IMG/VR virus record: IMGVR_UViG_3300036851_000360
Location: 1 to 64,000 of that record
Direction: 5' to 3' (one strand)
DNA length: 64,000 nucleotides
DNA from: a virus
Of this stretch, positions 13,701 to 29,766 are shown in pieces (positions within the stretch are counted from its first letter, which is position 1; each line of letters opens with the position of its first letter). Below the pieces are notes generated by a model. That model was not told where the DNA came from, did not search any database, and saw only the letters and a program-made list of their open reading frames with translations. The translations under genes and the position numbers were made by a program.

Positions 13701-14359
13701 TGCAGCAGATCACCACCGCCACCCAGCAGGGCATGCAGCAGGCCACTACTGCTGTCCAGCAGGGCATGCAGCAGATGGTGTCGGCGATCACGACCGGGAT
13801 GAACCAGGCCGTGTCCATTGTGCAGTCGGCGATCTCGAGGATGGTGTCCGCGCTCAACTCGGCCGTCGGCCAGTTCCGCGCCGCCGGCGCCAACATGGGT
13901 CAGGCCTTGGCCGATGGCCTCAACTCGAAGGCCGGGGCAGTCGAGGCGGCCGCCCGCCGACTCGCCAACGCCGCCGCAGCAGCGATGCGCGCGGCAGCGC
14001 AGATCCGCTCACCAAGCCGGATCAGCACCTACTTGGGCGAGATGTGGGGCGCGGGCTTCGTAGGCGGGCTCGACAACTCGGTCTCGGATGTTGAGCGGTC
14101 GGCCCGGGCTCTGGCCGACGCAGTCGTCGACGGTGTCTCCGGTGTGCAAGACGTCCTGGCGGGTGACGCGTGGGCGGCGGACTTCAACGCGAAGGTGAAC
14201 GCCCAGCTCGCCCAGCATGACACCACAGGCACGTCGGGCCAGACCGCGGGGAAGCAGATCGTCATCCAGACGACGATCAACAATCCGCAGGCTGAGCGGG
14301 GCAGCGACTCGATAGCACAGGTGCACCGGCGCCAGGCTGCGATGGGGATATTCGGATGA
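10730..14359 (+). CDS. tail tape measure protein
   Basis: The 1209-residue tape measure sets tail length; at roughly 0.15 nm per residue a tail near 180 nm is expected. A soluble N-terminal part of short repeating strands (VEIPVEFDVD, VTVPVDLEPD, ITIPVELELR) leads to a hydrophobic stretch (about residues 190-255: AAVAAALLLPPIAAAIAVAG and onward) that may act on the host membrane during DNA entry. Residues about 680-950 are tandem 44-residue repeats. The GTG start follows GGGAGG by 8 nt. No lytic domain is evident. Confidence 0.92.
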   Translation: MTSPGGREVGRVSIRVLPDTAGFRQRLQRALDAAESGLEVEIPVEFDVDPNELKAKLAAIQARVTVPVDLEPDIPKLRAQLAALDNSRITIPVELELRDTARLNAVLARLNNRAIRINVRLNGVSQAIARLTALDAIVRRLDGRNISINIDVDAGAAIAQIAAIEAALVGVRASLGSVGTSGSQSFSRMGSAITAAVAAALLLPPIAAAIAVAGAGITAAWGAISTAIVAIPPAILLLAGPIAAVIAGLDGIKAAAKTIKPEFDAMQKAVSATFEQRMIPIFERLTKTFPQLTNGMKGTAISLSDIALRLTEMVTSAEGLTRIDLVFANINRTLGDLSPGISALVDSFLILGSQASIFDVLSGTINTFAQSFRQMVIDVSGEGGVLDAAMRGLQGTLEGLARGFVDLVRNGLEVFAAAAPGVNALIEEMTGFFNRFDWTSLGASVGGVFQGLADAIAGVPTQTIRDIETAFADLSAVFQSTDFQADIQAMIGAIPEAIGLVRDLTAAFGDVGAGVATALEAYGRVKEAIGQVDEAIQTALPGFDLFGTIIRNIPGVNLGPLIGDLAAGYNEVTGTVEEGSTKAGDAAAKGMTDLGARAALEGERGMSQVPGATKAGLKGVAPAVTEGLTPAAQALVTAFSQMPPVVQEGFASLAPAAAAGMAVLSAAITDGGADMQASLSSSFGILATTATDGMTTISTAITGGAPQWSLAVGTAMQQVQLVFNTSFSQMATIAEQGMIGVQTAMTSGTAGWSLAIGLAMQAVMLVFTTSFSQFATIAEQGMIGVQTAMTTGTAGWSLAVGLAMQAVMLVLTTSFSQFGVIAEQGMIGVQTAMTAGTAGWSLAVGVAMQGVMLVLTTSFSQMATIATAGMLTVQTAITAGVALWATALATGMLQLHTVVSNGFLQMAAIATNGMALFAAAINIGFAGVIASVNAGMLLIVAAVTVGFAQIVAAVTAGMAQVAAALQLNWAAAIAATTAAMAQMTSAVQVGMQQITTATQQGMQQATTAVQQGMQQMVSAITTGMNQAVSIVQSAISRMVSALNSAVGQFRAAGANMGQALADGLNSKAGAVEAAARRLANAAAAAMRAAAQIRSPSRISTYLGEMWGAGFVGGLDNSVSDVERSARALADAVVDGVSGVQDVLAGDAWAADFNAKVNAQLAQHDTTGTSGQTAGKQIVIQTTINNPQAERGSDSIAQVHRRQAAMGIFG
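12776..13576 (+). repeat. tandem 132-bp repeats in tape measure gene
   Basis: In-phase 132-bp (44-codon) units begin at 12917, 13049, 13181 and 13313, with diverged units before (12776) and after (13445). Each encodes a version of ATIAEQGMIGVQTAMT ... AGWSLAVGLAMQAVMLV. Whole-unit gain or loss would change tail length in fixed steps. Confidence 0.85.
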
Positions 14360-15252
14360 CCAGCCCGCTGTACCCGCCGTTCTATCCGCCCGCCTACCCG
14401 GCCATACCGGCAGCTCCTCCGGTCCCGGAGGAGCTGCTGGTCAACGGGGTGAGCCTCGGCTCGTACTGCTACATGACCACCGACGTTTCCAGCCTCCTTG
14501 GTGTACCAGCCCGCCGAGGCGACGACGGCGTGGTGCCGGGCCGGCACGGGCGGATTCGCACGCCACAGAAGAAGTTCGATGTCGGCGAAGTCGTGCTGCC
14601 GCTGTGGGTGGTCGGTTGCCGTCCCGACGGGACGATCCCATCGACGGGGCGGATGGAACGGGAATTCTTCCGCCGCCGCGACGAGCTCCTCCGCCTGTTC
14701 TACGCCGATGACGTGACGTTGCAGTTCCGCCGCGCTGACGGGGTCGTGCTGTCCACGCGCGTCGAGGTCATTGACGTCATGGACTTCACCCGGCGTCGGG
14801 CGGAGCCGCTGGCGAAGGTGTCGGTGGCGCTTCGGCTCGCGGACGCGTTCTGGACCGAGGCCATCGACGTGGCGCAGACCATCACTGGAACCACCGGCAC
14901 GACGGTCGAGCTGACAGCATTTCAGGGCTCCACGGCGCCAATTGCGGATGCTCGGATCACGTTCACCGGCCCGGTGTCGAACCCGCGGCTCGCGGTCGGC
15001 CAGCGGTGGGTGCAATTCAACGGCGTGATCGTGGCTAGCCGGGAACTGGTGCTCGAGTGCGGGCACTGGCGGGCGTCGTCCGGGGCCGGGGCGGCGTGGT
15101 CGCCCGATCGGCGGCAGGTGTTCCGCGAGCCAGGTCCCGCGTGGCTGGAGATCCCGCCATCACCGGAGCCGCTGAACGTGGTCTTCACGCACACCGGGGG
15201 CGGCTCGGCGACGGCCGAGATCTCCGGCAACCGCAAGTTTCTGACGGCGTGA
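14356..15252 (+). CDS. distal tail protein (Dit-like)
   Basis: A 298-residue protein coupled to the tape measure by an ATGA overlap. The Pro/Tyr-rich N-terminus, a beta-sandwich region and the galectin-like C-terminal half (ADARITFTGPVSNPRL) fit distal tail proteins that join the tube to the tip. The motif RRDELLRLFYADDVTLQFRR is typical of actinophage minor tail proteins at this place. Confidence 0.75.
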   Translation: MTSPLYPPFYPPAYPAIPAAPPVPEELLVNGVSLGSYCYMTTDVSSLLGVPARRGDDGVVPGRHGRIRTPQKKFDVGEVVLPLWVVGCRPDGTIPSTGRMEREFFRRRDELLRLFYADDVTLQFRRADGVVLSTRVEVIDVMDFTRRRAEPLAKVSVALRLADAFWTEAIDVAQTITGTTGTTVELTAFQGSTAPIADARITFTGPVSNPRLAVGQRWVQFNGVIVASRELVLECGHWRASSGAGAAWSPDRRQVFREPGPAWLEIPPSPEPLNVVFTHTGGGSATAEISGNRKFLTA

Positions 15253-15262
15253 TGAGGGGCCG

Positions 15263-15697
15263 ATGAGCAATCTGTATGACAAGGCCCGCGAGGGTTTCGT
15301 CTCCGGCGAGATCGTTTGGAAGGACGGCGGGTCGGTCGTCAAGGCTCTGCTCGTCAGGGGCTATGCGTTCAGCGTCGCGCACAAGTTCGTGTCCGAGATG
15401 ATCGGCGCTGGCGGCACGATCGTCGCCAGCGACACCCTGAACTCGCTGACCAACACCAATGGGGTGTGCGACGCCGCGGACGCGGTATGGGAGGCGACGC
15501 CGGAGGGCACGGCGATCCCGCACATCATCCTCATCCAGGCCTCGGCGGTCACCGGTGGTGCGGATCTGCCGGCCTCACAGCAGCGGCTGATCGCGTGTAT
15601 CGACCGCGGTTCCGGGGTGACGCTCTCGATCACCCCGAACGGACAGAACATCACCGGCTCCTGGTCGCCAGGCGCGGACCGCATCTTCCGATTCTGA
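15263..15697 (+). CDS. minor tail protein
   Basis: A 144-residue protein opening MSNLYDKAREGFVSGEIVW, a pattern common in small actinophage tail proteins encoded next to fiber genes. Mixed alpha/beta, no signal peptide, GGGG before the ATG. It probably belongs to the tail tip; exact role unknown. Confidence 0.6.
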   Translation: MSNLYDKAREGFVSGEIVWKDGGSVVKALLVRGYAFSVAHKFVSEMIGAGGTIVASDTLNSLTNTNGVCDAADAVWEATPEGTAIPHIILIQASAVTGGADLPASQQRLIACIDRGSGVTLSITPNGQNITGSWSPGADRIFRF

Positions 15698-15707
15698 AGG
15701 GGAGAAC

Positions 15708-16997
15708 GTGGTCAACAGGTACTCGCCGCGGACGCCGGCCTGGGTGGACGGGCCGCAAGGGTTGGTGTTCGCGGCCGACGCGAACCGCTGGGAGCAGGGC
15801 ATCGAGGCGCTCGACAACGCCCTCGACGCCGCCGAGGGTCGGCTGGACGCGCTGCAGGCCGCGCTCGGAGGCATCACCGCCACCGGTGTCCCGGTAGTCA
15901 CTACCGCCACTCGCGGCACGCCCACCAAGGGCCGGATCGTCTTCGACGACGACCTGGATCAGTACATCGGCGGGACCGGGACTGCATGGATCGAACTCAG
16001 CGTCGGCGAGGAGGTCCCCGGCCCCGGTTCCGGGACCGCACCGACCGGGCTGACCGCGGTCACCCAGCCGGACAACTCGATCGTCGTGAGCTGGAACCCG
16101 GTGGTGGGTGCGACCCACTACAAGCTGTACGAGATCCGCTCCCCGGGCGGCGTCTCGGGCGCGGACAACATCACCACGACCTCGACCACGCGCACCCCTA
16201 GCTCGATGGGCAACTACGAGTACTGGGTGACCGCCTTTGTCGGCGGCGTGGAGTCGGCGCAGTCCAACCACGGGCTCTGCGTGCTGCCCTACAGCACCGG
16301 CGGCGGCGGTGGAGGTGGTTCCGGCAGCACGCCGGCGCAGCTGCTCGCGCTCGGATCGACCGGCGGCAAGTGGAACCTAGGTGTCGGTTACCCGTCCGGG
16401 CACGTCGACATCGCACCGTCCACGTTGGAGGGCGGCTGGACGGAAGCCCCGTACTTCTACGTCAATGAGGCCGGGACCAAGGTCCACTTCCAGGTCCCGA
16501 TGAACGGCGGGCGCACGAGCTCCAATACGAAATATCCCCGGTGCGAGCTGCGCGAGTACATCGGTAGCTCCAAGGCGGCGTGGTCCGGGTCGTCCGGAAC
16601 GCATGTGATGTCCGGGCGGACCACCGTCCTGCACATGGAGTCCGGCAAGCCGGAGATGGTCGTCGCGCAGATGCACGACGGGTCGGATGACACCCTGCAG
16701 ATCCGGGTCGAGGGCACGACGTGGCGCGCGTCGATCAACGGCACCGAGCACTCCACCACGCTGGGCACGTTCTCGACGGGCACCGAGGTGGCGTGGGAGA
16801 TCCGGGTGGTCAACGGCACACTCACGATCAAGATCAACGGCACCACGAAGATCACAACCAACCCAGGATACGGCTCAGGGCAGTACTTCAAGGTGGGCTG
16901 CTACGCACAGCAGAACAACACCTCCGATGGCGGCGGCAACCCCGACAACGGGTACGCGTCCTGCGAACTGCGGGACCTCGTAGTTACGCACAGCTGA
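15708..16997 (+). CDS. tail protein with FN3 and PL7 alginate-lyase-like domain
   Basis: A 429-residue virion-associated depolymerase candidate. Residues 1-55 look like a tail-attachment coiled segment; about 104-190 form a fibronectin type III-like domain; a Gly/Ser linker (202-212) leads to a PL7 alginate-lyase fold (about 215-429). PL7 signatures are visible: YPRCELREY, VVAQMHD (the Q-x-H site) and YFKVGCYAQQN. It would cut uronic-acid polymers in the host coat. GGGGAGAAC precedes GTG 15708. The end overlaps the next gene (TGATG). Confidence 0.8.
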   Translation: MVNRYSPRTPAWVDGPQGLVFAADANRWEQGIEALDNALDAAEGRLDALQAALGGITATGVPVVTTATRGTPTKGRIVFDDDLDQYIGGTGTAWIELSVGEEVPGPGSGTAPTGLTAVTQPDNSIVVSWNPVVGATHYKLYEIRSPGGVSGADNITTTSTTRTPSSMGNYEYWVTAFVGGVESAQSNHGLCVLPYSTGGGGGGGSGSTPAQLLALGSTGGKWNLGVGYPSGHVDIAPSTLEGGWTEAPYFYVNEAGTKVHFQVPMNGGRTSSNTKYPRCELREYIGSSKAAWSGSSGTHVMSGRTTVLHMESGKPEMVVAQMHDGSDDTLQIRVEGTTWRASINGTEHSTTLGTFSTGTEVAWEIRVVNGTLTIKINGTTKITTNPGYGSGQYFKVGCYAQQNNTSDGGGNPDNGYASCELRDLVVTHS

Positions 16998-19900
16998 TGG
17001 CGACGATCTATGTCTCCACGACCGGAAGCGACGGCAACGCGGGCACGACGCCGGGCTCACCCAAGCTGACCCTCGGCGGTGGGCTGGCCGCCGCGAGCGC
17101 CGGGGACACGGTGCAGGTCGCGTCCGGCACCTATAGCGGCAACTTCATCACCAGCAAGGGCGGATCGTCGGGGAACTTCATCACGATTCGCTCCGAGGTG
17201 AAGCACGGTGCGAAGATCAGTGGCAACGACGGCACCTCGAACGAGTCCGCGGTCGAGATCAACCACGCCTACATCCGCGTCCAGGATTTCGAGATTACCG
17301 GCACGGCCGGGTCGGGCCTCCGGAACGGTGTGATCGTCAACGCGGACAACGTCGAGGTCATCGGCAACCACATCCACACCACCTGCCAGTTTTTGACCGA
17401 AGGGACTTCTTGGCAGGGCGGCGCCGGGATCGACTTCTGGGGCGCGTCGCGGACGAACGTCTTGGTCGACGGCAACCGCATCCACCACATCGGGGCGCCG
17501 GGTAGCACCCAGCAACTGGTGCACGGCCTGTACCCAGCACAGCCGGCGACGAACTGCCGCATCGTCAACAACGTGGTCTACGACTGCGAGGACTACGGCA
17601 TCCAGCCGTACCCGGAGGACGAGGCCACCGGCTGGAAGATCGTCAACAACACGGTGGTCGCGTGTGGGCGCGGCATCCGCACCGGCGACAACACAATCGT
17701 CCGCAACAACATCAGCTACAACAACAAGGCGAACAACTTCGACGTCCGCGGCTCCGGCAGCACCCTGTCGAACAACATCTCGGGCGGCTCCGGCTCATCC
17801 AGCATGTCCGGGGTCACCGTCGCCAACCCGCTGTTCACCAACTACTCGGCCCGGGACCTGACTTTGGCTGCGGGGAGCCCCGCCCTGGACGCGGGCACCG
17901 CCACCGACGCCCCGGCCACCGACGTCGCCGCCACCGCCCGTCCGCAGGGGTCTGCGGTGGATGCTGGTGCCTACGAGAAGCCAGCCGCCGTCGGAGGCGG
18001 GACAGGCGCGCCGTACACGCTCGCGTTCCCCGACGGGACGCCCTACCCGACGATCCCGGCCGGTACGACCGTGGTCAATGTGTCGACGTCGTCGGCCTTG
18101 TCCTCGGCGTTGTCGTCGGCGACCGCCGGGCAGCGGATCGTGCTCGCGGACGGGTCGTACTCGGGCGCGTTCTCGATGTCCGGGCGGGCAGGCACGGCGG
18201 CGGCCGGGATCTCGGTTGAAGCGGCCAACGTCGGCGGTGCGACGTTCGCGACCGGATCGACGTTCCGGGTCACGAACTGCTCGTACGTGACGATCTCGGG
18301 TCTGATGTTCAACTGGCAGGGCGAAGGCGAGACCTTTCAATTCCGTGGCACGTCACACCACTGTCGGCTCACCCGCTCCACGTTCGGCCCGACCACGCAC
18401 GCCGAGTCGTCCGGTGTGCAGACCTGGGTTTTCATCGGGGACGACTGCTACCACATCCGGATTGATCACAACGAGATCCGGAACAAGGGAACGAGCGGCA
18501 ACGGCGTCCGGGTGTACGGCTCGTTCGCGAAGGTCGACGCCGGCCAGGGCTCGAGCGCCGGTTGCCGGTGGGTGCGCATCGACCACAACATCTTCCGGTC
18601 GATCAAGCCTGAGGTGGGCAACGACAAGGAACCGGTGCGCTACGGCGTGTCCACGATGTCGCGGACGATCAGCAACGGCGTCATCGAGCGGAACCGCTTC
18701 GAGGACTGCATCTGTGAACCTGAGGTCATCTCGGTGAAGATGGGCGGCATCCGGACCACCGGTAACACCATCTACCGGTGCGCGGGTGGGCCGGTGATCC
18801 GTCACGGCACCAACTCGGTCATGAGCGATAACTACGTGGTGGACCGGGTTGACACCTTCGGCACCACCATCGGCTCCGGCGGCATCCGGTTCTACGACGC
18901 GGATCACGAGGTTGCCTACAACTACATTGACGGTGTCTTTGGCGGGAACTTCCAAGGCCCGCTGCTGCTGGACACCGGCGACGCCGAGGGCTCGAGCACG
19001 AACCTGTCCGGGCACTGGCGGGTCATCGGCGCCGACGTGCAGCGGAACGTGATCGTCGACTGCCCCGAGGGCATCCGGATCGGCGATAACTATTCGTCGG
19101 TGCCACGGGACTGCCGGATCCAACACAATCTCGTGGTCGATGCCGACTCCGGCGCCGCCATCACCCAGCGGGTCGCTCCGTCTAACACGGTGCTGGACGG
19201 AACGAACGTCTACTACGCCACCACGACCGCGGCGGGGATGACCCAAGACGCGGACACGATCTGGCGCAAGCCGGGATTCGGACCCCGGCTGACCTACCTG
19301 GAGCAGGCCGACGTCGGCCCGGCCGGGGACCTCGGGGACACCGACGGAACCGGTGTTGAGGCGGGCGGTATCGCCGCCGACCCGGCCGACATCCTGAACA
19401 TCGGGGCCGACGAGGGCCAGAACCATTTCCAGCTGCAGTACGCCCTCGACGGCAGCACCGGCAACGACATCACCATCACACAGTTCGACGACGTCGCTGC
19501 CGGGTTCACCGCCGACCCGTACTTCAAGGTCGTCACGAACCTCGATGGCGCACCTGCGGTGCAGTTCCGGGTGCGGGCGGACGCGGCCACTACGACAGGT
19601 TCGTCGACACCGCGCTCGGAGCTACGGGAGACCCGCGCCGACGGCACCGAGATGGCGTTCGACGCCATGCACGGCGACCATTCGCTGCGCACTCGGGTCC
19701 GGATCACCCACCTGCCAGCGGGTGACCCCGAGGTCGTCGTGGCGCAACTGCACAACGGCGTCACCGGGGACCGGATCGCGATCCGCACACAGCTGGTGTC
19801 CAGCCAGATCAAGTTGCTGTGCCGGATCAACGGCACCCAGGTGGATCCCCGGTTCGACGAGTCCTACGCGGTGGGCGACGAATTCGAGGTCTTCGTCAAG

Positions 19901-20986
19901 GTGCTGGACGGTGGGCTTGTCGAGGTCTACTACAACGGCGTCACCGAGCCCACGGTCACCGGCCAGCTGGCCGCGAGCGGAGCGGGCGCCTCCTGGTACT
20001 GGAAGCTGGGGGCATACGCGCAGTTCGACGAGACCACCACGTCGGCCACCGAGTACGTGTCGGTCGAGCACCGCGACCTGCAAGTCACCCATGGCGGCGG
20101 CCGGGTGGACGCAGGCGCGGACGCGCAGGTGATCACGGGGCAGGCATTCACTCGGCTGGCGCAGGAGCTCGGTCTCACCGGGGTCACGGCCCGCCGTTGG
20201 ACGATCGTGTCTCGGCCGCTGCCGCCCGACCCGGAACCCGACCCGGGTCCGGGCGACCCGGGGGACATGACGATCGCCGCGGTCCGGCACGGCTGGGGCA
20301 CTCCGCACGCGTTGTCCGACGAGTTCGACTACACCGGCCCGCCGAACTCGACGAAGTGGAAGCTGCCCGGCGCGGACTGGGCCGGGCACAACGGCAACGG
20401 TCGTCGCCGCCCGGAACGGCAGACCGTCGCCGACGGGAAGTTCGTCATGACCGGGCTGCAGAACGGCGACACGGGGTGGTGTCAACATCGGCTGGACGTG
20501 CAGTACGGCCGCTGGGAGGCGCGGGTTCGGAGCTTCGCCGGGGCCCCGTCCGCGGGCGAACCGGACTCCACGTCGAACGGCAACGACTATCACCCGCTGC
20601 TGCTGCTGTGGCCGCAAAGCAACTCCCGTCAAACCGATGGCGAATATGACTGGATGGAAAACGGGGCGCCAGGCGAAAACACGCTTGAGGCGTTCATCCA
20701 CTACCCGCATCCAGGCACGAGCGTGGTTCAGCAGGAGCACTTCGAGCGGCCCAACAGCAGCCTGAGCCAGTTCCACAACATCGCCATGGAGTGGACCTCT
20801 CAGCACATCAAGGGCTTCTTCGACGGCGTGGAGTGGTTCTCCGTGAGCGGGGGTGCGAACAGCGTGCGACGCAACATCCAAACCATGCCCGCGGGTCACG
20901 CGGTGATACAGCTCGACGACTTCGACGGCACCAATCAGACGCCAGCAACGATCGAGCTCGAATGGTTCCGTTATTACAGTCTGTGA
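16997..20986 (+). CDS. multidomain tail depolymerase: beta-helix, PL6, PL7, GH16
   Basis: A 1329-residue tail protein with several carbohydrate-active folds in a row. Residues 1-330: right-handed beta-helix (DUF1565/pectate-lyase type). About 350-640: second beta-helix with PL6 chondroitinase-B-like signatures (VISVKMGG with the Lys, PVIRHG with the Arg). About 805-1031: PL7 domain (TPRSELRET, VVAQLHN, YWKLGAYAQFD). About 1034-1074: first half of a PKD/Ig-like domain. About 1095-1329: GH16 domain with the catalytic E-x-D-x-x-E (GEYDWMENG). The stop TGA at 20984 is followed in the same frame by the next ORF, which begins with the missing half of the PKD-like domain. Codons at the GH16 end are less GC-rich than neighbours, suggesting recent acquisition. 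Confidence 0.8.
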   Translation: MATIYVSTTGSDGNAGTTPGSPKLTLGGGLAAASAGDTVQVASGTYSGNFITSKGGSSGNFITIRSEVKHGAKISGNDGTSNESAVEINHAYIRVQDFEITGTAGSGLRNGVIVNADNVEVIGNHIHTTCQFLTEGTSWQGGAGIDFWGASRTNVLVDGNRIHHIGAPGSTQQLVHGLYPAQPATNCRIVNNVVYDCEDYGIQPYPEDEATGWKIVNNTVVACGRGIRTGDNTIVRNNISYNNKANNFDVRGSGSTLSNNISGGSGSSSMSGVTVANPLFTNYSARDLTLAAGSPALDAGTATDAPATDVAATARPQGSAVDAGAYEKPAAVGGGTGAPYTLAFPDGTPYPTIPAGTTVVNVSTSSALSSALSSATAGQRIVLADGSYSGAFSMSGRAGTAAAGISVEAANVGGATFATGSTFRVTNCSYVTISGLMFNWQGEGETFQFRGTSHHCRLTRSTFGPTTHAESSGVQTWVFIGDDCYHIRIDHNEIRNKGTSGNGVRVYGSFAKVDAGQGSSAGCRWVRIDHNIFRSIKPEVGNDKEPVRYGVSTMSRTISNGVIERNRFEDCICEPEVISVKMGGIRTTGNTIYRCAGGPVIRHGTNSVMSDNYVVDRVDTFGTTIGSGGIRFYDADHEVAYNYIDGVFGGNFQGPLLLDTGDAEGSSTNLSGHWRVIGADVQRNVIVDCPEGIRIGDNYSSVPRDCRIQHNLVVDADSGAAITQRVAPSNTVLDGTNVYYATTTAAGMTQDADTIWRKPGFGPRLTYLEQADVGPAGDLGDTDGTGVEAGGIAADPADILNIGADEGQNHFQLQYALDGSTGNDITITQFDDVAAGFTADPYFKVVTNLDGAPAVQFRVRADAATTTGSSTPRSELRETRADGTEMAFDAMHGDHSLRTRVRITHLPAGDPEVVVAQLHNGVTGDRIAIRTQLVSSQIKLLCRINGTQVDPRFDESYAVGDEFEVFVKVLDGGLVEVYYNGVTEPTVTGQLAASGAGASWYWKLGAYAQFDETTTSATEYVSVEHRDLQVTHGGGRVDAGADAQVITGQAFTRLAQELGLTGVTARRWTIVSRPLPPDPEPDPGPGDPGDMTIAAVRHGWGTPHALSDEFDYTGPPNSTKWKLPGADWAGHNGNGRRRPERQTVADGKFVMTGLQNGDTGWCQHRLDVQYGRWEARVRSFAGAPSAGEPDSTSNGNDYHPLLLLWPQSNSRQTDGEYDWMENGAPGENTLEAFIHYPHPGTSVVQQEHFERPNSSLSQFHNIAMEWTSQHIKGFFDGVEWFSVSGGANSVRRNIQTMPAGHAVIQLDDFDGTNQTPATIELEWFRYYSL

Positions 20987-21019
20987 TTGGCGGGAGTCAA
21001 CGGCGATGAGGCAGCTGTT

Positions 21020-24000
21020 GTGACCGGCCCGATCGATAGCGACGCCGAACTCAACTGGGTCGCCCCGACCACCACCGGCACCTACGTCATCCGCTACGCG
21101 GTCGACGCGAACGAGGGCACGTTCAGCGACGACGTAGTCGTCACGGTGGTGGACGCCCCAACCGGCCCGCAGACGGTTCACCTGGACTCGATCCCATCCC
21201 GGGCGGCCATCGGCGAACCCACCATCGTCATCGACCAGCCGGCTGGCGCGACCCCGACCATGCTCGGCGTCAACACCGTCCTGGGCGAGACATTCTTCCT
21301 GGGCTACAACCCCCAAGTCCCGACCGGCCCGCAGACCGTCCACCTGGACTCGATCCCATCCCGGGCGATCGTCGGCGAGCCGACGGTCACGGTGCGCCCG
21401 GCGCCACTGCCGGTCGTCGTCAACCTGGACTCGATCCCGTCGCGGCTGCGGATCGGTGCCCCGTCGGTGACGGTTGGGAACGCCCCACCGGACCAGCCGA
21501 TCACCGACCTGACCCTCTCGCTGTTCGCGATCGACCCGGCCACCGGGTACGGGATCCCGCTCCCGGATTTCGAGTCCCTCACGCTGTCGCCGTTGCGGAA
21601 CTCCGGCGGCTCGATCAGCCTGGACTACCCGGAGGACGGCGAGAACTTCGCGGTCCTGCGAGCCGCGATCACCAACGGCCGCGACGTCGAGGTCGAGATC
21701 TGGGTGTCCGGCACCTCCCGCGGTGCCCTGCGCGGCTATCTACAGGAAGCCCAGGGCGACGACACGGCCGAGGACGGCGCGTGGACGTTCGCCGGCGGCT
21801 TCCTCGGGTTGCGCATGGACGAGGCGTGGATCCGCCCGCAGGAACAGGGCCCGCTCGTCCCCGATGACGACGACAACCCGGACAACGACCAGCACGCCAA
21901 CGAGAAGCGTGAACTGATCTTCAACGCGTCGACCGCGGGTACCGTGATGGCCACGGCCATGACCCAGGCCCACACCCGCAACGCACTGAGCGACATCGTC
22001 TGGGACTTCACCGCCACCCACGACTCCGACGGCACCCCCTGGCCACAGGTGATCACCACCCGGTTCAGCCCGGGCGCCAGCTACAAGCAGCTACTGGATC
22101 GGCTGGTCACCCTCGGACTCGCCGAGTGGGACGTGCAGTGGAGCGGCGCCCACCGGGTACTGAGGATGTGGGTGCCGGAGGGCCGGGGCACCGACCTGTC
22201 CGACGACGCGGTACCGGTGGTACTGCAGCACGGGCAGAACATCCTGGACGCCCCCCGACGCTGGTCGGTGCGCGAGGCCGGCACGACGGTGATGGTGGCC
22301 GGCGCGGACGGCCTCTACGACGAGGCATCGGACGCGACCGCGCTCACCCGCCGGGGTCGGCGGATCGAGCGGTTCGTGTCGGCGAACAACCTGGCCGACG
22401 CGGGCGCGGTCACCGCTTACGCGCTCAACCAGCTCCCACTGGTCACCACCGGGCTGCACGAGGTCACGCACGGGATCGGGTTCCTGTCCGGCTCGCCACG
22501 GCCGATCGTCACCTACGACGTCGGGGACTGGGTGCTGTCCGAGTCCGGGGACACCCAGGAACGGTTGCGGGTGGTGCAGTGGACGTTGACCGTCGACAAC
22601 GATGGGGGCCTGTCCGGGACGGTCACACTCAACGACACCGTCACCGACGCCCTGGTGCGGTTGCAGGCCCGCCTGGACGCCATCACCTCCGGTGAGACGG
22701 TCGTCGGCACGAGCGAGCCGTCGTCGGGGAACCTGTCGGACATCACCCCGCCCGCCGCGCCGGAGGGCCTGGTCGTCTCCTCGATCGCCTACCAGGACCC
22801 GGCGCACACCAACACCCTCGCGTCGGTCACGGTGGGCTGGCTGCCGGTCGTCACCAACGCCGACGGTTCGAACTACCCGCAAGTCCAGGCCGCGCGCTAC
22901 CTCCTGCTTCAGATGGAGGATCTGGAGAACAACCCGCCGGACCCCGACGATCCCGACGACGACAGGATGATCGACCAGGACACCTGGACCTGGGCGGACT
23001 GTCCCCAGGTGGTCCAGGACTACGCGGGGGTGCTGCGCCAGGAGTGGGTCGCTGACGGCAGCCCGGCGGGCGTGGAGACGTGGCTGCAGTCCTACGTCGC
23101 CGAGTTCTCCGCCACCCCGACGGCGACCGACGACGTGGCTGGCTACAAGGTGCGCTACGCCTACCTCGGCCTGGATCAGGTCGGCGGGATCCCGAGTTCG
23201 GACCCGTTCCCTGACGACGACCGGGTCTACTACGAGGCCACCCCGTCGAACGGCATCTCGGGCACGTCGTGGACGTTCGGCGGGGTCGAGGCCGGCGCGA
23301 ACCTGCGCATCGAGGTGCAGGCGTTCGACCGGTCCAGCAACCACGGGCCGTGGGCGTCGATCGGGCACGACACCGCCATCGACGACACCCCGCCGCCCCG
23401 CCCCGGACCGCCCGGGATCACGGCGTCGTTCCGCGGGGTGCACATCACCTGGGACGGGCTCGGCCAGATCGGCGAGCCGATGCCGATGGACTTCGACCAC
23501 GTCGAGGTGTGGATTAGCCAGTCTGCGGACTTCTCCACGGCAGCGTCCACGGCTGGGTTGGCTACCGCGTTCGACCCGTTGAACCCGAACCCGCAGCATG
23601 TCGGGGACCTGTTCGCGGCCGGGACTCATCCGGTGCAGGACATGCTGTACGAGGTCGGCTACTACGCGGCTCTGCGGGCGGTGGACCGGTCGGGGAACGT
23701 GTCGCTGATGTCGGCGGCCGGCGGGCCAGCCACGGCGGAGAAGCTGTTCTCCGACGACCTGCGCGATCAGATCATCAACGACTCCTCGATGATCGCCGCG
23801 CAGACCATCGGCACGTTGCATGTTGTCGACGGTGCGATCATCACCGCGAAGATCGCCGATCTTGCGGTGAACAACGCGAAGATCGCCGACCTCGAGGTGG
23901 GCAAACTCCGCTCCGGGACGATGATCGCGCAAGTCACGATCGCCGGGAAGTTCCGCACCCACGAGTCCGACGCCGCGAACCGGGTCGAGTTCGACGCCGC

Positions 24001-24904
24001 AGGGCTGCGGCTCTACCGCGGCTCGACCGTCGTTGGGTCGTGGAACGTCACCGACGGATCCATGCTGATCACGGGAACGTGGCGCACCGGGCTGACCGGG
24101 GAACGCGCCGAGGGCCACCCGGACGGCTCGGTCCGCTGGTACCCCCAGTCCGGGTCTAACTACTCCCAGATAGCGAACTTCGGCAACGACGTCGTGTGGC
24201 GCGGCCCTCTCGACACAGCCGGCCGCTCCGGGCGGATCAATGTCAACGCCCTTGGTGTCGGGTTGAACTTCTCCGCCGAGTCGGAGATCCCCAGCAACCT
24301 CCGCGCAGAGATCGCCGTGTTCGACCGCCGGGCCCGCATCACCAGCCCATTCGCAGCGTTCGAGGTGAACGGGAAGCTGGACAACCCCGCCGGCGGGCCA
24401 CGCCGGTTCCAGTTCTCCCAAACCTCCGCGTCCGGGACGACGCTGCCGTACTCATACCTGTCGTACATGGCCTCCTCCTCGTCAGGTCGGGGCGGGTTCT
24501 GGGGTAACGGCGCTGGCATCAAGATGGAGGCCGGTCAGGTTCTGGTCACCGGCGACGAGCTCGACGGGTTCGGCGTCATCAAGGCGAACGAGTTCGCGGT
24601 CGCCTCCAGCGCGCAGATCAAACGCGACATCGTGGACGTCGACGACGAGGCGGTTCCGCTTGACCCGGAGCAGGTGTTCCGTGACGCCCCGGCGGTGCAG
24701 TTCAACTACGTCGACGACGCCCCCGATGTGCCGCCGCGGCTGGGTGTGCTCGCCGAGCAGATGCCGGAACTGATGCGACACGTCGGCCCTGACGGCAAGG
24801 GCGGTGTGGTCCTGTCAGTTGGGGTGACGAGCCAGCTCGCCCTCCAACACGCGGCGCTCCGCCGCATCATCGCCCGCCTGGACGCCCTGGAAGGAAGCCT
24901 GTGA
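21020..24904 (+). CDS. tail hub / minor tail protein with C-terminal S74-type chaperone
   Basis: A roughly 1294-residue tip protein. It begins with half an Ig/PKD-like domain, then three LDSIPSR repeats (from 21181, 21342 and 21424), then the actinophage central hub region (LTLSLFAIDPATGYGIPLPD ... LTLSPLRNSGGSISLDYP), FN3-like domains, a trimerising fiber part and a C-terminal S74 intramolecular chaperone (AQIKRDIVDVDDEA ... LGVLAEQMPEL). Such chaperones guide trimer folding and are then released by self-cleavage. GTG 21020 with GAGG 8 nt upstream is chosen; the frame is open back to the stop at 20986, with a TTG at 20987 that lacks a ribosome site. Confidence 0.8.
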   Translation: MTGPIDSDAELNWVAPTTTGTYVIRYAVDANEGTFSDDVVVTVVDAPTGPQTVHLDSIPSRAAIGEPTIVIDQPAGATPTMLGVNTVLGETFFLGYNPQVPTGPQTVHLDSIPSRAIVGEPTVTVRPAPLPVVVNLDSIPSRLRIGAPSVTVGNAPPDQPITDLTLSLFAIDPATGYGIPLPDFESLTLSPLRNSGGSISLDYPEDGENFAVLRAAITNGRDVEVEIWVSGTSRGALRGYLQEAQGDDTAEDGAWTFAGGFLGLRMDEAWIRPQEQGPLVPDDDDNPDNDQHANEKRELIFNASTAGTVMATAMTQAHTRNALSDIVWDFTATHDSDGTPWPQVITTRFSPGASYKQLLDRLVTLGLAEWDVQWSGAHRVLRMWVPEGRGTDLSDDAVPVVLQHGQNILDAPRRWSVREAGTTVMVAGADGLYDEASDATALTRRGRRIERFVSANNLADAGAVTAYALNQLPLVTTGLHEVTHGIGFLSGSPRPIVTYDVGDWVLSESGDTQERLRVVQWTLTVDNDGGLSGTVTLNDTVTDALVRLQARLDAITSGETVVGTSEPSSGNLSDITPPAAPEGLVVSSIAYQDPAHTNTLASVTVGWLPVVTNADGSNYPQVQAARYLLLQMEDLENNPPDPDDPDDDRMIDQDTWTWADCPQVVQDYAGVLRQEWVADGSPAGVETWLQSYVAEFSATPTATDDVAGYKVRYAYLGLDQVGGIPSSDPFPDDDRVYYEATPSNGISGTSWTFGGVEAGANLRIEVQAFDRSSNHGPWASIGHDTAIDDTPPPRPGPPGITASFRGVHITWDGLGQIGEPMPMDFDHVEVWISQSADFSTAASTAGLATAFDPLNPNPQHVGDLFAAGTHPVQDMLYEVGYYAALRAVDRSGNVSLMSAAGGPATAEKLFSDDLRDQIINDSSMIAAQTIGTLHVVDGAIITAKIADLAVNNAKIADLEVGKLRSGTMIAQVTIAGKFRTHESDAANRVEFDAAGLRLYRGSTVVGSWNVTDGSMLITGTWRTGLTGERAEGHPDGSVRWYPQSGSNYSQIANFGNDVVWRGPLDTAGRSGRINVNALGVGLNFSAESEIPSNLRAEIAVFDRRARITSPFAAFEVNGKLDNPAGGPRRFQFSQTSASGTTLPYSYLSYMASSSSGRGGFWGNGAGIKMEAGQVLVTGDELDGFGVIKANEFAVASSAQIKRDIVDVDDEAVPLDPEQVFRDAPAVQFNYVDDAPDVPPRLGVLAEQMPELMRHVGPDGKGGVVLSVGVTSQLALQHAALRRIIARLDALEGSL
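21161..21480 (+). repeat. three LDSIPSR-coding repeats
   Basis: Near-identical segments begin at 21181, 21342 and 21424, the first two preceded by the same accggcccgcagac stretch. Each encodes a short beta unit (V-x-LDSIPSR ... IG-x-P-x-V). This is a repeat type seen in actinophage tip proteins, probably an extended stalk. Confidence 0.7.
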
Positions 24905-25053
24905 CACACGGCCCAGAGATCAACGTGTCTGAGGTCATCGCCGAGCTCGACCCGCTCGGGAAGGCGTTGTTCGACGCCGCCTTGGAACGGGTGCGGGTGC
25001 GGCGTCTGCAGGAGCGGATCGCTGAGCTTGAGCAGCAGCAGGAAGGGGTCTGA
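24901..25053 (+). CDS. small tail-region helical protein
   Basis: A 50-residue ORF starting at GTG 24901 with a GTGA overlap with the hub gene and ending 2 nt before the next gene. The product (VSEVIAELDPLGKALFDAAL, then a coiled coil ending RLQERIAELEQQQ) resembles short coiled-coil proteins found between hub and fiber genes in actinophages. It may be an assembly factor or tip subunit. Confidence 0.75.
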   Translation: MTHGPEINVSEVIAELDPLGKALFDAALERVRVRRLQERIAELEQQQEGV

Positions 25054-25055
25054 AC

Positions 25056-27230
25056 GTGCCGACTTCGTTCCCCACGTTCGTTGACACCCCGGAAGGGGAA
25101 GAGCCGGAGCCGGGCACCCCAGACGCCGACGCCGCCTACCTGAACAGCGTCAACGTCGCGATCAACACGCTCGAGAACACGCTGCCCGGCAAGGTCGACG
25201 CTGGCACTCTCGCCACGGTAGCCAGCTCCGGCGCCTACACCGACCTGATCGGTTCACCGTTCATCCCGACCGCGCCGAGCCACATCGGCGCGCAGCCGGC
25301 CGGCACCTACGTGGTGCCCGGCGATCTGGCGGCGTACGCCCCGGTCGCACACACCCACGCCGCGCCGAACAAGGTCCCCGTGGGCAGCATCAACGCCACC
25401 GGCACCCCCACTGCCTCGACGTTCCTGCGTGGTGACGGCACCTGGTCGCCGCCCCCACCGGACATCAGCGGCGGGATCAGCGGCGCGGTTGGCGACGGAG
25501 TCGTCGACGACACCGTCGCGATCAATGCTGCGCTCACGGCCGCCCGCACCGGTGGTGGCGGTCTGGTGAAAGGCGCCCCCGGCAGCACCTACCTGATCAA
25601 CGCGCCGTTGGTCATCGGGTCGAACACCGTGCTGGATATGACCGGCTGCCGGGTGGTGCTCGACCCGGCGGTGACCCAGTCCAACATGCTGAACAACCGT
25701 GCGGTCTCCACGTCGAACCGCACGGTCACCGACGGCGCGATCGCCGCCGCCGCGAACATCCTGGTGTCCGCTGCGGCCGCTTGGACGTCGGCCGACATCG
25801 GCCGCAGCGTGCACATCCCCGGCGCTGGCTGGGAGCTGCACGGCGGGGACGAGACCCCGGTCTGCGCCACGATCCTCTCAGTGTCGGGCACGGACGCCGA
25901 GCTGGACACCGTTGCCGGTACGACCGTTGTCGGCGCCACGGTGACCATCTACAACCGCGACGAGAACATCTTGGTGACCGGCGGTACCTGGGACGCGGGG
26001 GCCAACGAAGGCGGCGCCGACAACACCGGGCGACACATCCTGCGATTCCGCCGCATCGACGACCTGACGGTGCGGGACCTTCGGGTCGAGTGCACCGGCG
26101 GGAAGTACGCGATCACCCCCGGCGACTGCAACCGCGTGAAGATCACCGACTGCTCGTTCGACACCAGCTCCGACGGCATCCACTTCCACGGCCCGGCACG
26201 TGGCATCACGATCCGCGGGATCACCGGCGTCATGGGCGACGACTCGGTCGCGATCGGCACCGACGACATCCCGCAATATCAGGACGTCGCCGGGCCCATC
26301 AGCGAAGTGGTCATTGAAGACGTCGACTGCGTCACCGACATCAACATCGTGAAGATCTACACCCGGATCGGGATCGACCTGAACAACATCACGATCCGCA
26401 ACATCCGCGGGCGGAGCCTCGGCGAGTTCACCGGCATCACCCTTGTCGACGGGACCATGGACAACATCCTGGTCGACGGCGTGAACATCACCGGCCCGGC
26501 GGGCGGCATCTTCCGCTCGGTGATGCTGGCCTGCTCGAGCTCGAAGGCCACCGTCCGCAACGTCGTGTCTAGCGGCGGGTTCCTGTGCCAGGTCGTCACC
26601 GGGTTCACCGTCGACTCCCTGCTCGTGCAGGGCGCGGTGCACAGCTCACCCACCAGTGGCGATCACATGGTCGTCATCGATGGTTCCGTCGGCCACCTGT
26701 CGGTCTCCGACTTCTCCTGCACGCTCCCCGCCAGTGCGTCTCTCGTCCGCATGACCAACGGGGCCAGCATCGGCGCCGCCTACATCTCCGACGGTGTCCT
26801 CACCGGCGTCACCCACGGCTCGTTCCTCGACGCGCAGGTGTCATCCGGCACCCTCGGGCGGGCCGTGCTCCGCGGGCTCCGGGGCAGCAGCATTGCGTTT
26901 GGGTTCGCCACCAGCATCTCCGGGGAGGTGAACCTGTCGGACGTCGACCTGTCCGCAGCGATCGGACTGGTGTACGTGGCGGGCGGCAACCTAGTGATCC
27001 GCAACGGGCAGGGCATCACCGGAACGGCTACAGCCAGCTTCCGCGATGCCGGCACTCTCGCTGTCCGGGCCCCCGACTTCCCCATCGATCTCGACCTGGC
27101 CAACAGCCGATCCGCCGGCGACCGGGCCTTCAACGTCGACGCTGGCCTGTCCTGCGGTGTCGGCCCGGTGGTGTTCAACGGGACCGCCTGGGTGAACGTC
27201 GCCTCCGGCGCCACGTACACGCCGGCCTGA
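25056..27230 (+). CDS. tail fiber with GH28-like pectin-lyase-fold domain
   Basis: A 724-residue fiber. The N-terminal part has the tail-fiber signature TFLRGDGTWSPPP (about residues 124-136), a trimer neck. From about residue 145 a right-handed beta-helix starts with GDGVVDDTVAINAALTAA, the common pectate-lyase superfamily entry. Coils carry GH28-like elements: TSSDGIHFHG and MGDDSVAIGT (Asp-Asp) and VKIYT. The catalytic set is not complete enough to assert hydrolysis, so it may bind rather than cut. GGAAGGGG precedes GTG 25056. Confidence 0.75.
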   Translation: MPTSFPTFVDTPEGEEPEPGTPDADAAYLNSVNVAINTLENTLPGKVDAGTLATVASSGAYTDLIGSPFIPTAPSHIGAQPAGTYVVPGDLAAYAPVAHTHAAPNKVPVGSINATGTPTASTFLRGDGTWSPPPPDISGGISGAVGDGVVDDTVAINAALTAARTGGGGLVKGAPGSTYLINAPLVIGSNTVLDMTGCRVVLDPAVTQSNMLNNRAVSTSNRTVTDGAIAAAANILVSAAAAWTSADIGRSVHIPGAGWELHGGDETPVCATILSVSGTDAELDTVAGTTVVGATVTIYNRDENILVTGGTWDAGANEGGADNTGRHILRFRRIDDLTVRDLRVECTGGKYAITPGDCNRVKITDCSFDTSSDGIHFHGPARGITIRGITGVMGDDSVAIGTDDIPQYQDVAGPISEVVIEDVDCVTDINIVKIYTRIGIDLNNITIRNIRGRSLGEFTGITLVDGTMDNILVDGVNITGPAGGIFRSVMLACSSSKATVRNVVSSGGFLCQVVTGFTVDSLLVQGAVHSSPTSGDHMVVIDGSVGHLSVSDFSCTLPASASLVRMTNGASIGAAYISDGVLTGVTHGSFLDAQVSSGTLGRAVLRGLRGSSIAFGFATSISGEVNLSDVDLSAAIGLVYVAGGNLVIRNGQGITGTATASFRDAGTLAVRAPDFPIDLDLANSRSAGDRAFNVDAGLSCGVGPVVFNGTAWVNVASGATYTPA

Positions 27231-27255
27231 CGCACACGCAAGCAGGGGAGCCCCG

Positions 27256-27966
27256 ATGGCTATTCGGTTCGACGCAGCCGGAGATCGCGTCTACATCGCC
27301 ACCACGCTGCCAAACCCCGCAACGACGGGGTTGACGATCCTCGGGTGGTGGCGGGTACGGGTCGACCGCGACGACTACTCGGCCTACTACCGGACCTCCG
27401 CGGCCGGGACGTCGATCCACACCGTTGAAACCACCTCCACCGGGCTTGGGGTGAACATCTTCACCCCGTCCGGGGAGATCACCGACACCTACATCAACGC
27501 GGTCGACGAGTGGGTGGGGATCGCGGTCGTCGACAACGGGTCCGGCACGGTCACCCAGTACGTCCGCCCGGATGGGGGTGCGACCACGTCGAACAGCGGC
27601 GCGATCGCCTCCGGCACACCTGACCTGTTGTGTGTCGGCGGCCGGTCACAGTCCGACGCCACGGAGTGGTTCAACGGCGCTGCTACGCACGTCCGCGTGT
27701 TCGCCGACGCGCTCACCCAGGCCGAGATCGAGGACGAGTGGGCGTCGGCGAACCCGGTGCTGACAGCGTGGGCGGACTACCCGTTTCAGTCCGACATCCA
27801 GGACGCCTCAGGGAACGGCCGGCACCTCACCGCCGTGTCCGGCACGCCAGCGTTCGAACCGGGGCCGCTACCGGCCGACTCGACCACGGCGACCAGGTCG
27901 CGGGTTCTGACGCATGCCCGTCCACGTCTCGTCCGCGGTCGGACCCGCGCTGGCCGCAGACCATAG
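27256..27966 (+). CDS. LamG/concanavalin A-like tail-associated protein
   Basis: A 236-residue protein with a single concanavalin A-like (LamG) domain: AIRFDAAGDRVYIA, LTILGWWRVRVDRDDYSAY, then WFNGAATHVRVFADALTQAE near the end of the domain. These domains bind glycans or peptides. The C-terminal 35 residues are Arg-rich and low-complexity. It continues the tail-tip operon and may be an accessory receptor-binding protein. GGGGAG lies 6 nt before the ATG. Confidence 0.7.
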   Translation: MAIRFDAAGDRVYIATTLPNPATTGLTILGWWRVRVDRDDYSAYYRTSAAGTSIHTVETTSTGLGVNIFTPSGEITDTYINAVDEWVGIAVVDNGSGTVTQYVRPDGGATTSNSGAIASGTPDLLCVGGRSQSDATEWFNGAATHVRVFADALTQAEIEDEWASANPVLTAWADYPFQSDIQDASGNGRHLTAVSGTPAFEPGPLPADSTTATRSRVLTHARPRLVRGRTRAGRRP

Positions 27967-27991
27967 CAACCCCGATCGGAGGCCCGGCCGG

Positions 27992-28330
27992 GTGGACGCG
28001 GTCCTGACCACGCTCATCGGGGCAGCCCCACAACTCGGTGTCGGCGGCATCCTCCTCACCCTGCTGGCGTTGTTGATGCGCCGGGAGTCGCAGGACCGGG
28101 CTGACTACCGCACCCAGATCGCGGAGCTGTCGTCCCGGCACGCCGACGAGTTGAGGCGGATCAACGAGTCGCACGATGCGGAACTCGCCGAACTGCGTGT
28201 GGAGATCAAAGGTTTGCGGGTGCAGCTCGACGAGGTCAACCGGAAACTCGACGAGGAACGTGGCCTGAGGCGGGCAGCGGAGGACTCCATGCGACCCCGG
28301 CACCGGCGCACCCCAGGCGACACCCCATGA
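27992..28330 (+). CDS. membrane-anchored coiled-coil protein
   Basis: A 112-residue protein with one hydrophobic segment (about residues 12-28, [15 protein letters not shown]) followed by a long charged coiled coil ([10 protein letters not shown] ... [13 protein letters not shown]). GTG 27992 with GGAGG 9 nt upstream is preferred to ATG 27914, which would overlap the previous gene by 53 nt. It may be a holin-like or spanin-like accessory or an anchored virion protein; the sequence alone does not decide. Confidence 0.65.
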
Positions 28331-29022
28331 ACCGGGCCCGGCACCGGCTGCAACTGTGGACCCGGAACCGGATGGTGATGCTCGCCGTCGCCGCCACGGC
28401 GGTGCTGTTCATCGTCGCCGCGTCAGTGTGGGCCCAGCTCGGGCAGCAGGCCGCGCAGCAGCAGACCGGGGTAGTGGAACAGCAGCGCGACCAGGCGACC
28501 GAGCAACGAGACGACGCCGCCGCGCAGGCCGTGTCCCTCGCCGAGCAGATCAAGGCGGCGTGCGGGGACGGGTCCCTGTCAGGGGCAGTGTGTGAGCAGG
28601 CGGAGCAAGTCGCTGCAACACCCGTCCCTGGACCGGTTGGACCCCAAGGCGTCCCCGGGGCGTCTGGGCAACCCGGGACAGCCGGCGAGCCCGGCGCGGC
28701 TGGACCTGCTGGACCGACCGGGACGGCTGGCGACCCGGGGGCTACTGGCCCTGCCGGGCCCGCCGGCACGGATGGCCGGGATGGTGTGGACGGCGCGGAT
28801 GGTGTCGACGGGCAGGATGGCGAGCCTGGTCCAGCTGGCCCGGCAGGTCCACAAGGACCGACTGGCGAGCCTGGAGAGGACGGCCAGGACGGCGACGACG
28901 GGCCCCAAGGCCCACCCGGTGAGCCGCCAGCCTCCTACACGATGACCATCCTTGGGATCACGTACACGTGCACCCGCACCGGCGGGGACAACACCTCGCC
29001 CACATACACCTGCTCGACCTGA
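28327..29022 (+). CDS. collagen-like membrane-anchored protein
   Basis: A 231-residue protein: basic N-terminus, transmembrane helix (about residues 16-36, [20 protein letters not shown]), coiled-coil stalk (38-80), then about 100 residues of Gly-X-Y collagen repeats (from [20 protein letters not shown] to PQGPPGEPP) and a short Cys-containing C-terminal cap (YTCTRTGG). Coupled by ATGA to the upstream gene. Collagen repeats are known in phage fibers, but an N-terminal anchor suggests it may instead be shown on the infected cell surface. Confidence 0.75.
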
Positions 29023-29067
29023 GCAGCTCTGATCCTTGCAGTTCAACGTCACCTTCTGGGAGACACC

Positions 29068-29766
29068 TTGAAGAAGATCGTCGTACCCGCTGCTGCCCTC
29101 GCGCTGTCTCTTATGACAGTTGGCGCGGGCCTGGCGCAGGCGGCGGAGCCGGCCAACTGCGCCGACGCCATAACCGCTCTCCAGCGCGCCGACTCGGACC
29201 ACCGCGCTGCTGTCGCCGCGGACGACAAGGCCGCCGCGGCGGAGAAGGCCGTCGACGACCTCGAGCGGGCAGAGGATCGGCTCGCGGACGCCGAGCGGGA
29301 TCTGGCGGCTGCGCGGGACACGCTCACGCGGGCCAAGGACCGTCTCGCCGATCTGAAGAAGCCCGGCGATGGCCCTGACGACAACACCACTCAGGAGCCG
29401 GGTGAGACCATCGGGAGCGAGCAGCAGATCGCCGACGCGCAGTCCGCTGTCGACGCCGCGGAGGACAAGGTCGATGACCTCACCGTCGTGCGCAACGACC
29501 GCCTGGAGGAGCGCAACGACGCTGTCGATCTGGAGAACGACGGCGACGCCGACGACCTGCAGGACGAGGCCGACAAGACCGACGCCGCCGCGCTGAAGAA
29601 GGCGGTCGACGAGGCGCGGGACGACTTCAACCGGATCTGCATCGACGAGGACGACCCCACCGACGACGTCACTACGACGCCCGCCACCCCGACGCCGGCG
29701 CCTGACGTGGACGTCACCGTCGTGACCCCCCGCGGGGGCGTGGCCACCGGCGGCGGTCCTGCGTGA
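29068..29766 (+). CDS. secreted coiled-coil protein with sortase-type C-terminal tail
   Basis: A 232-residue exported protein. A clear signal peptide (MKKIVVPAAALALSLMTVGA, cleavage after AQA) is followed by two long acidic coiled coils and a Thr/Pro linker. The C-terminus ends TPRGGVATGGGPA, which resembles the P-x-G-G-V-x-T-G tails of proteins encoded beside actinobacterial class E/F sortases. The next gene is a sortase overlapping by 4 nt. TTG 29068 has GGGAG 5 nt upstream. Inference: a surface protein processed by the phage sortase, altering the host wall. Confidence 0.7.
   Translation: MKKIVVPAAALALSLMTVGAGLAQAAEPANCADAITALQRADSDHRAAVAADDKAAAAEKAVDDLERAEDRLADAERDLAAARDTLTRAKDRLADLKKPGDGPDDNTTQEPGETIGSEQQIADAQSAVDAAEDKVDDLTVVRNDRLEERNDAVDLENDGDADDLQDEADKTDAAALKKAVDEARDDFNRICIDEDDPTDDVTTTPATPTPAPDVDVTVVTPRGGVATGGGPA

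Follow-up and report, generated by a model that had tools for sequence, protein, structure and literature searches.

The closest described counterparts of the tail tip reported here are the tailspikes of Sf6, HK620, and P22 and the alginate lyases of Pseudomonas phage PT-6 and of Azotobacter phages. The phage alginate lyases treated in a review come from Pseudomonas and Azotobacter phages and are proteins of ~30–37 kDa (PMC5380687). We analyzed the first 64,000 bases (hereafter, the window) of the 72,180-base IMG/VR virus record IMGVR_UViG_3300036851_000360. Its tail-tip genes share with these systems a virion-type beta-helix spike and the lyase strategy, but the comparators infect Gram-negative hosts, whereas the host of the window phage is most likely an actinobacterium. 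The genes encode two domains of polysaccharide lyase family 7 (PL7), one of family 6 (PL6), and one of glycoside hydrolase family 16 (GH16), and the last of these lies within a PKD domain that is split between the enzyme gene and the hub gene. We lean towards reading this locus as a depolymerase apparatus in which the split PKD domain, once completed, docks the enzyme chain on the hub. The enzyme set itself appears to be a variant of the known depolymerase tail, the split-domain layout its unusual part, and assembly in trans a proposal. We know of no multi-lyase phage chain of this type. Literature searches on lyases of actinophages, tail-tip PKD domains, and split tail genes gave no relevant result, and no record was found of phages of high-GC actinobacteria with alginate-lyase-type enzymes.

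Lyase and glycosidase domains of the tail tip

An earlier note, made from the sequence alone, had listed consecutive tail-tip genes for an FN3-PL7 protein, a beta-helix/PL6/PL7/GH16 protein, a hub, a beta-helix fiber, and a LamG-like protein. Pfam searches and gene order confirmed this list (Table 1). The two PL7 domains were, as claimed there, located in different proteins and had intact motifs: RCELRE, QMH, and YFKVGCYAQ in the first, RSELRE, QLH, and YWKLGAYAQ in the second, matching R-x-E-L-R, Q-x-H, and YxKxGxYxQ in both. Their PF08787 (Alginate_lyase2) scores of 124.6 and 88.5 bits exceeded the curated cut-off of 29.7 bits. In profile searches against solved structures, both domains aligned with the polyguluronate lyase ALY-1 (1uai) and with AlgAT5 (5zqi) at E-values of 1e-17 to 3e-38, sharing the fold-defining sequence and the R-x-E-L-R, Q-x-H, and YxK motifs. 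ALY-1 and AlgAT5 are secreted bacterial enzymes, whereas the window domains belong to tail proteins of a phage whose host does not have to be an alginate producer. The glucuronan lyase 7nde was also among the PL7 matches; therefore, a PL7 domain does not imply alginate.

The PL6 domain scored 127.3 bits with PF14592 (Chondroitinas_B; cut-off 24) and aligned with AlyGC (5gkd) and chondroitinase B (1dbg) in the profile search, with the beta-helix, the conserved Lys/Arg, and the Ca-ligand region in common. The catalytic Lys and Arg of AlyGC were retained (EVISVK and RHG), the Arg being aligned with AlyGC R241. Unlike these two enzymes, the window PL6 is contained in a tail protein, and related phages split it over two genes. 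These relatives are four sister tail tips (L074, L081, L084, and L078) recovered when portal-related contigs and their surroundings were searched with hub, enzyme, and FN3-PL7 queries.

The GH16 homologue of L084, 66% identical to the window copy, was detected by PF00722 above the curated cut-off of 22 bits (6.7e-9, 35.9 bits), and a profile built from four GH16 sequences matched solved laminarinases at 6e-7. The ExDxxE catalytic motif reads GEYDWME in the window and GEYD(W/F/Y)(M/Y)E in all four sequences. The ratio of nonsynonymous to synonymous substitution rates (dN/dS) was low for both GH16 and PL6. A recent exchange of GH16 between the window phage and L081 was rejected: the proteins were 93% identical, but DNA identity was just moderately higher than in the flanks and synonymous divergence was similar, which indicates constraint rather than recent transfer. 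Except for AlyGC R241, the residues of the PL7, PL6, and GH16 motifs have the roles that we take to be general in their families. With their motifs retained in comparison with characterized enzymes, rather than lost throughout, both PL7 domains, PL6, and GH16 of the window look catalytically competent.

The fiber was modeled as a right-handed beta-helix of the tailspike type, with the Sf6 tailspike as its best match (Z 26.0, rmsd 3.1, 324 residues), a match to a predicted model with a mean predicted local distance difference test (pLDDT) score of 49. It had been described as GH28-like. The fold agrees with this, since polygalacturonases were matched at Z ~22.7–22.9, but of the GH28 motifs (NTD, G/QDD, GHG, and RIK) GHG and RIK were not found by inspection of the fiber and its homologue; SSD and GDD were present. 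The N-terminal region of the tailspike is common to the window (25056–25450) and L081 (19688–20090) while the C-terminal body is replaced, apparently the usual swap of a receptor module.

A PKD domain divided between the enzyme protein and the hub

The position of GH16 had been overlooked in the earlier note. A segment RVDAGAD...RRWTIVSRP, the N-terminal half of a PKD domain, directly precedes GH16, and TGPIDSDAELNW...GTYVIRY...GTFSDDVVVTV, the C-terminal half, directly follows the stop codon and opens the hub. The halves flank GH16 in the window, L074, and L081, phages that are ~70–75% identical. A chimeric assembly of the GH16-stop-hub junction was rejected because the identical junction recurs in L074 and L081. 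Further viral scans yielded no ancestor with an intact PKD domain.

The two halves were modeled with AlphaFold2 (AF2) as a single chain, with TGA read as W. Both reached pLDDT values of 62–82, and the 274 residues of GH16 between them remained unmodeled. With VIA-align, both ends of the model (range 1–357) superposed as one domain on the PKD domain of AAVR (Z 10.0, rmsd 2.6, 91 of 95 residues), followed by KIAA1837 (9.4), KIAA0319 (9.2), and collagenase (9.2). Thus, according to the model, the halves are complementary and fold together as one PKD domain, similar at Z 9–10 to the KIAA0319/AAVR-type and collagenase domains. Each of those is a single chain, whereas in the window GH16 and a gene boundary separate the two halves. 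The PKD match comes from VIA-align: Foldseek with the PKD-GH16-PKD model gave no hit with E below 0.001 because the GH16 part was unmodeled. The joined halves scored 14.1 bits with PF22352, mainly through the C-terminal half, below the cut-off of 27; the domain is therefore classified as PKD-like by fold only.

The hub start codon is located at the identical residue in the window, L074, and L081 (GTG, ATG, and GTG, respectively). It is preceded by a Shine-Dalgarno (SD)-like sequence in the window and L081 and lies in an ATGA overlap in L074, so that stop and next start overlap or are at most 36 nt apart. In-frame codons upstream of the start encode VNGDEAAV in the window and FEGEELQP in L081, which look like remnants of the uncut PKD domain. 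GH16 and the hub share a frame in the window and L081, and read-through or bypass of the TGA could thus yield an enzyme-PKD(GH16)-hub fusion of ~2,640 residues. We regard such a fusion as very unlikely, given two consecutive stops in L081, the SD-like sequences at the hub starts, and the different frame of the L074 hub with its ATGA overlap, which excludes read-through as a shared solution. An in-frame open reading frame (ORF) that interrupts a coding sequence and has a stop behind it also resembles an intron ORF. Removal of GH16 as part of an intron or intein seems hardly credible: no Rfam group I or II intron was matched over 14000–30000 at E up to 1, stop and start overlap in L074 and leave no space for intron RNA, new start codons are present, and in L084 the PL6 C-part, GH16, and hub form one chain of 1776 aa. 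The latter also means that GH16 is physically tied to the hub there.

A second split domain and the proposed assembly

With a slash for each gene boundary, the window has the layout beta-helix 1–PL6–PL7–PKD N-half–GH16 / PKD C-half–hub. L074 differs from it only in lacking beta-helix 1 and in having a cysteine-rich ORF inserted upstream. L081 has PL6 N-part–X / PL6 C-part–PL7–PKD N-half–GH16 / PKD C-half–hub, where X is a second beta-helix; L084 has PL6 N-part–X / PL6 C-part–GH16–hub; and L078 has PL6 N-part–X / PL6 C-part up to the contig end. Accordingly, the PL6 beta-helix, uninterrupted in the window, L074, and the solved enzymes, is cut in L078, L081, and L084 at the residue matching window positions 18845–18865. 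The N-part continues into a Pro-rich linker, the X beta-helix, and a stop, and (M/V)ATFGTTIG forms the new start of the C-part. This is the cassette layout of the PKD case: linker, cassette, stop, and new start. Each part is an incomplete PL6 domain; therefore, if the enzyme works in these phages, its function needs reassembly in trans. Compared with the unsplit window copy, both L081 halves had a dN/dS of ~0.22, no weaker constraint than in the unsplit pair (0.24–0.38).

A near-identical leader, CACAGAGTAGGAGCC(G/A)CGTGGCCA, with an SD sequence and a GTG start precedes the PL6 N-part in L081 (~11436–11465) and L084 (~11575–11600) and the PL6 C-part in L084 (~13560–13590). Recombination at this leader may have produced the gene splits.

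The mechanism that we infer from sequence, including virion location, catalytic activity, substrate, and reassembly in trans, would operate in a temperate siphophage of actinobacteria, at its tail tip. The enzyme chain and the hub would formerly have been linked by a PKD domain, one loop of which would have received a GH16 cassette that brought its own stop. The N-terminal half would have been kept on the enzyme chain, and the C-terminal half would have become the start of the hub. Made side by side, the halves would reassemble as a single fold, joining the enzyme polypeptide non-covalently to the hub. By beta-elimination, the two PL7 domains and PL6 would cleave a surface polymer that contains uronic acid, and GH16 would cut a neutral glucan or galactan; together they would thin the surface layer. 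The beta-helix spike and the LamG protein would bind or cut a further receptor, and the hub would thereby reach the cell wall.

Several observations weigh against this mechanism. The window GH16 is weak by sequence (PF00722, 0.0047, 16.8 bits, below the cut-off). In the second PL7 of L074 (SWFFKVGAHAAF), the first, catalytic-type Tyr is replaced by Phe and the second by His, with the rest of the domain conserved; because of the first replacement, this copy is possibly binding-only. Together with the missing GHG and RIK of the fiber, it would suit tail tips in which most domains have lost catalysis and serve as lectin-like modules, limited to the binding of host glycans. Such a role is improbable for the window, where the motifs are intact in all four domains and the dN/dS of GH16 and PL6 is low.

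As for the joint, a single-chain model is permissive: it favors pairing of the PKD halves and says nothing on their meeting across chains. The halves were under the weakest selection in the block, with dN/dS values of 0.50 (confidence interval 0.30–0.84), 0.65 (0.36–1.14), and 1.29 (0.73–2.24) over 86 codons, so decay is possible, and they may be decaying relics. The L084 hub has no PKD domain. The same tail tip could therefore carry PKD halves that are non-functional leftovers of the GH16 insertion, with the enzyme held by another contact or released free. Relaxed constraint, the retention of GH16 and hub without PKD in L084, and hub start codons that trim the PKD remnant all speak for this possibility, yet we consider it unlikely overall. 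Both halves are full-length and recognizable in three phages and have a confident joint PKD fold, and the normal constraint on the split PL6 makes mere relics less likely. For docking through the completed PKD domain, these points are in favor; its generalization to the whole phage group, in which linker-enzyme-stop cassettes would insert into loops (PKD, PL6) and the split halves would act as snap joints between polypeptides, is put forward more tentatively.

Genomic context, relatives, and possible substrate

The window encodes TerL, portal, protease, major capsid, and tail proteins, with the tape measure gene (10730–14359) just 5' of the tail-tip block. The start of the multi-enzyme gene was corrected from an upstream position to ATG 16997, and for the hub GTG 21020 is the most likely start codon, rather than TTG 20987.

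Table 1. Tail-tip features of the window
Feature	Coordinates	Strand	Evidence
FN3 + PL7 tail-tip protein, 429 aa	15708..16997	+	PF08787; orthologues in 4 IMG/VR phages
PL7 domain of the FN3-PL7 protein	~16368-16991	+	PF08787 6.9e-36
Multi-enzyme protein, 1329 aa: beta-helix 1-PL6-PL7-PKD N-half-linker-GH16	16997..20986	+	
N-terminal beta-helix-like region	16997..18004	+	Sequence pattern only; Pfam empty; absent from the L074 sister gene
PL6/chondroitinase B domain	18080..19057	+	PF14592 1e-36; AlyGC and chondroitinase B by profile
RVDTFGT, site where PL6 is cut into two genes in L078, L081, L084	18845..18865	+	
Second PL7 domain	19424..20092	+	PF08787 7.2e-25
PKD domain, N-terminal half	20099..20221	+	AF2 model, VIA-align to PKD structures; conserved in 3 phages
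GH16 domain, inserted between PKD halves, ExDxxE intact	20267..20983	+	
TGA stop of the enzyme protein	20984..20986	+	
Tail hub, GTG start, FN3, C-terminal S74-type intramolecular chaperone motif at ~24605	21020..24904	+	SD GATGAGG; aligned with ATG/GTG starts of L074/L081
PKD domain, C-terminal half (first ~45 hub residues)	21020..21157	+	
Right-handed beta-helix tailspike; N-terminal part common with L074/L081, C-terminal part swapped	25056..27230	+	
LamG/concanavalin-like protein	27256..27966	+	PF13385 2e-8

Among named phages, the portal was closest to those of Corynebacterium, Gordonia, and Mycobacterium phages (~50%), and it was 55% identical to that of an Amycolatopsis prophage; on this basis the virus, of soil type, is assigned to a host no finer than Actinomycetota. 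A large serine recombinase (47468–48955) suggests that the phage is probably temperate. The C-terminal stretch of the major capsid ORF (6482–7696) matched PHROG tail/sheath families, and residues ~287–394 are probably an Ig-like domain. A collagen-like protein (28327–29022) is encoded soon after the LamG protein. Unrelated inserts occupy the gap that separates the FN3-PL7 gene from the PL6 gene in L074 (an HNH-like, cysteine-rich ORF, 3611–4558), L081, and L084 (small inserts), which suggests a hotspot of insertion.

Searched singly against viral and genome collections, the hub and enzyme proteins had no relatives; the clade was revealed by the portal query, which retrieved 63 IMG/VR contigs. 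PL7 matches occurred in 9 of 43 related contigs, many of them fragments, and in L075 the domain is in a different gene. On the reverse strand of L079 (9048–11096; phage record G034), PL7 is fused to the X beta-helix and a histidine-phosphatase-like region. The IMG/VR sister contigs have the same enzymes as the window. By tblastn, 50,697 GenBank phage records contained no relative of PL6, PL7, or GH16, and hub matches by megablast and tblastn were weak (24–38% identity). Six genomes with prophages whose portals are related gave no match to the FN3-PL7 profile. PL7-like proteins (31–38% identity) were detected in 9 of 394 actinobacterial genomes; the domain type is thus present in Actinomycetota, and a recent donor was not seen among these genomes.

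Polysaccharide lyases act on uronic acids by cutting the linkage at C4. Teichuronic acids have been described for Streptomyces and other Actinomycetota, and the repeat of S. griseus is ->3)GalNAc-alpha(1->4)-ManNAc3NAcA-beta(1-> (PMC13274773). Its mannuronic-acid derivative carries a substituent at O4, which is the type of bond that such lyases cleave. The earlier note had proposed an undescribed polymer, as alginate is not expected from an actinobacterium. Its broad set of glycan-active domains stands with intact motifs, but that further step falls, since 4-linked mannuronic-acid derivatives in teichuronic acids already described make the alginate paradox unnecessary. The teichuronic acids of Actinomycetota would be the most economical candidate substrate; for the diamino derivative ManNAc3NAcA in PL6 and PL7 pockets, the argument concerns a chemically suitable bond only. 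Alternatively, matrix polymers of soil neighbors, including alginate, may be the target. Umbrella toxins use Streptomyces teichuronic acid as a species-specific uronic-acid wall receptor (PMC13274773); they bind it by a lectin, whereas cleavage is proposed for the window phage.

Good enzymes are lacking for teichuronic acids and other wall polymers with uronic acids, and the window enzymes are candidates for such tools. If the split domains reassemble, modular tails could gain enzymes by insertion and yet keep their polypeptides linked, and natural docking pairs would be on offer. If true, fold complementation would be a recurring route to add tail enzymes without very long proteins.

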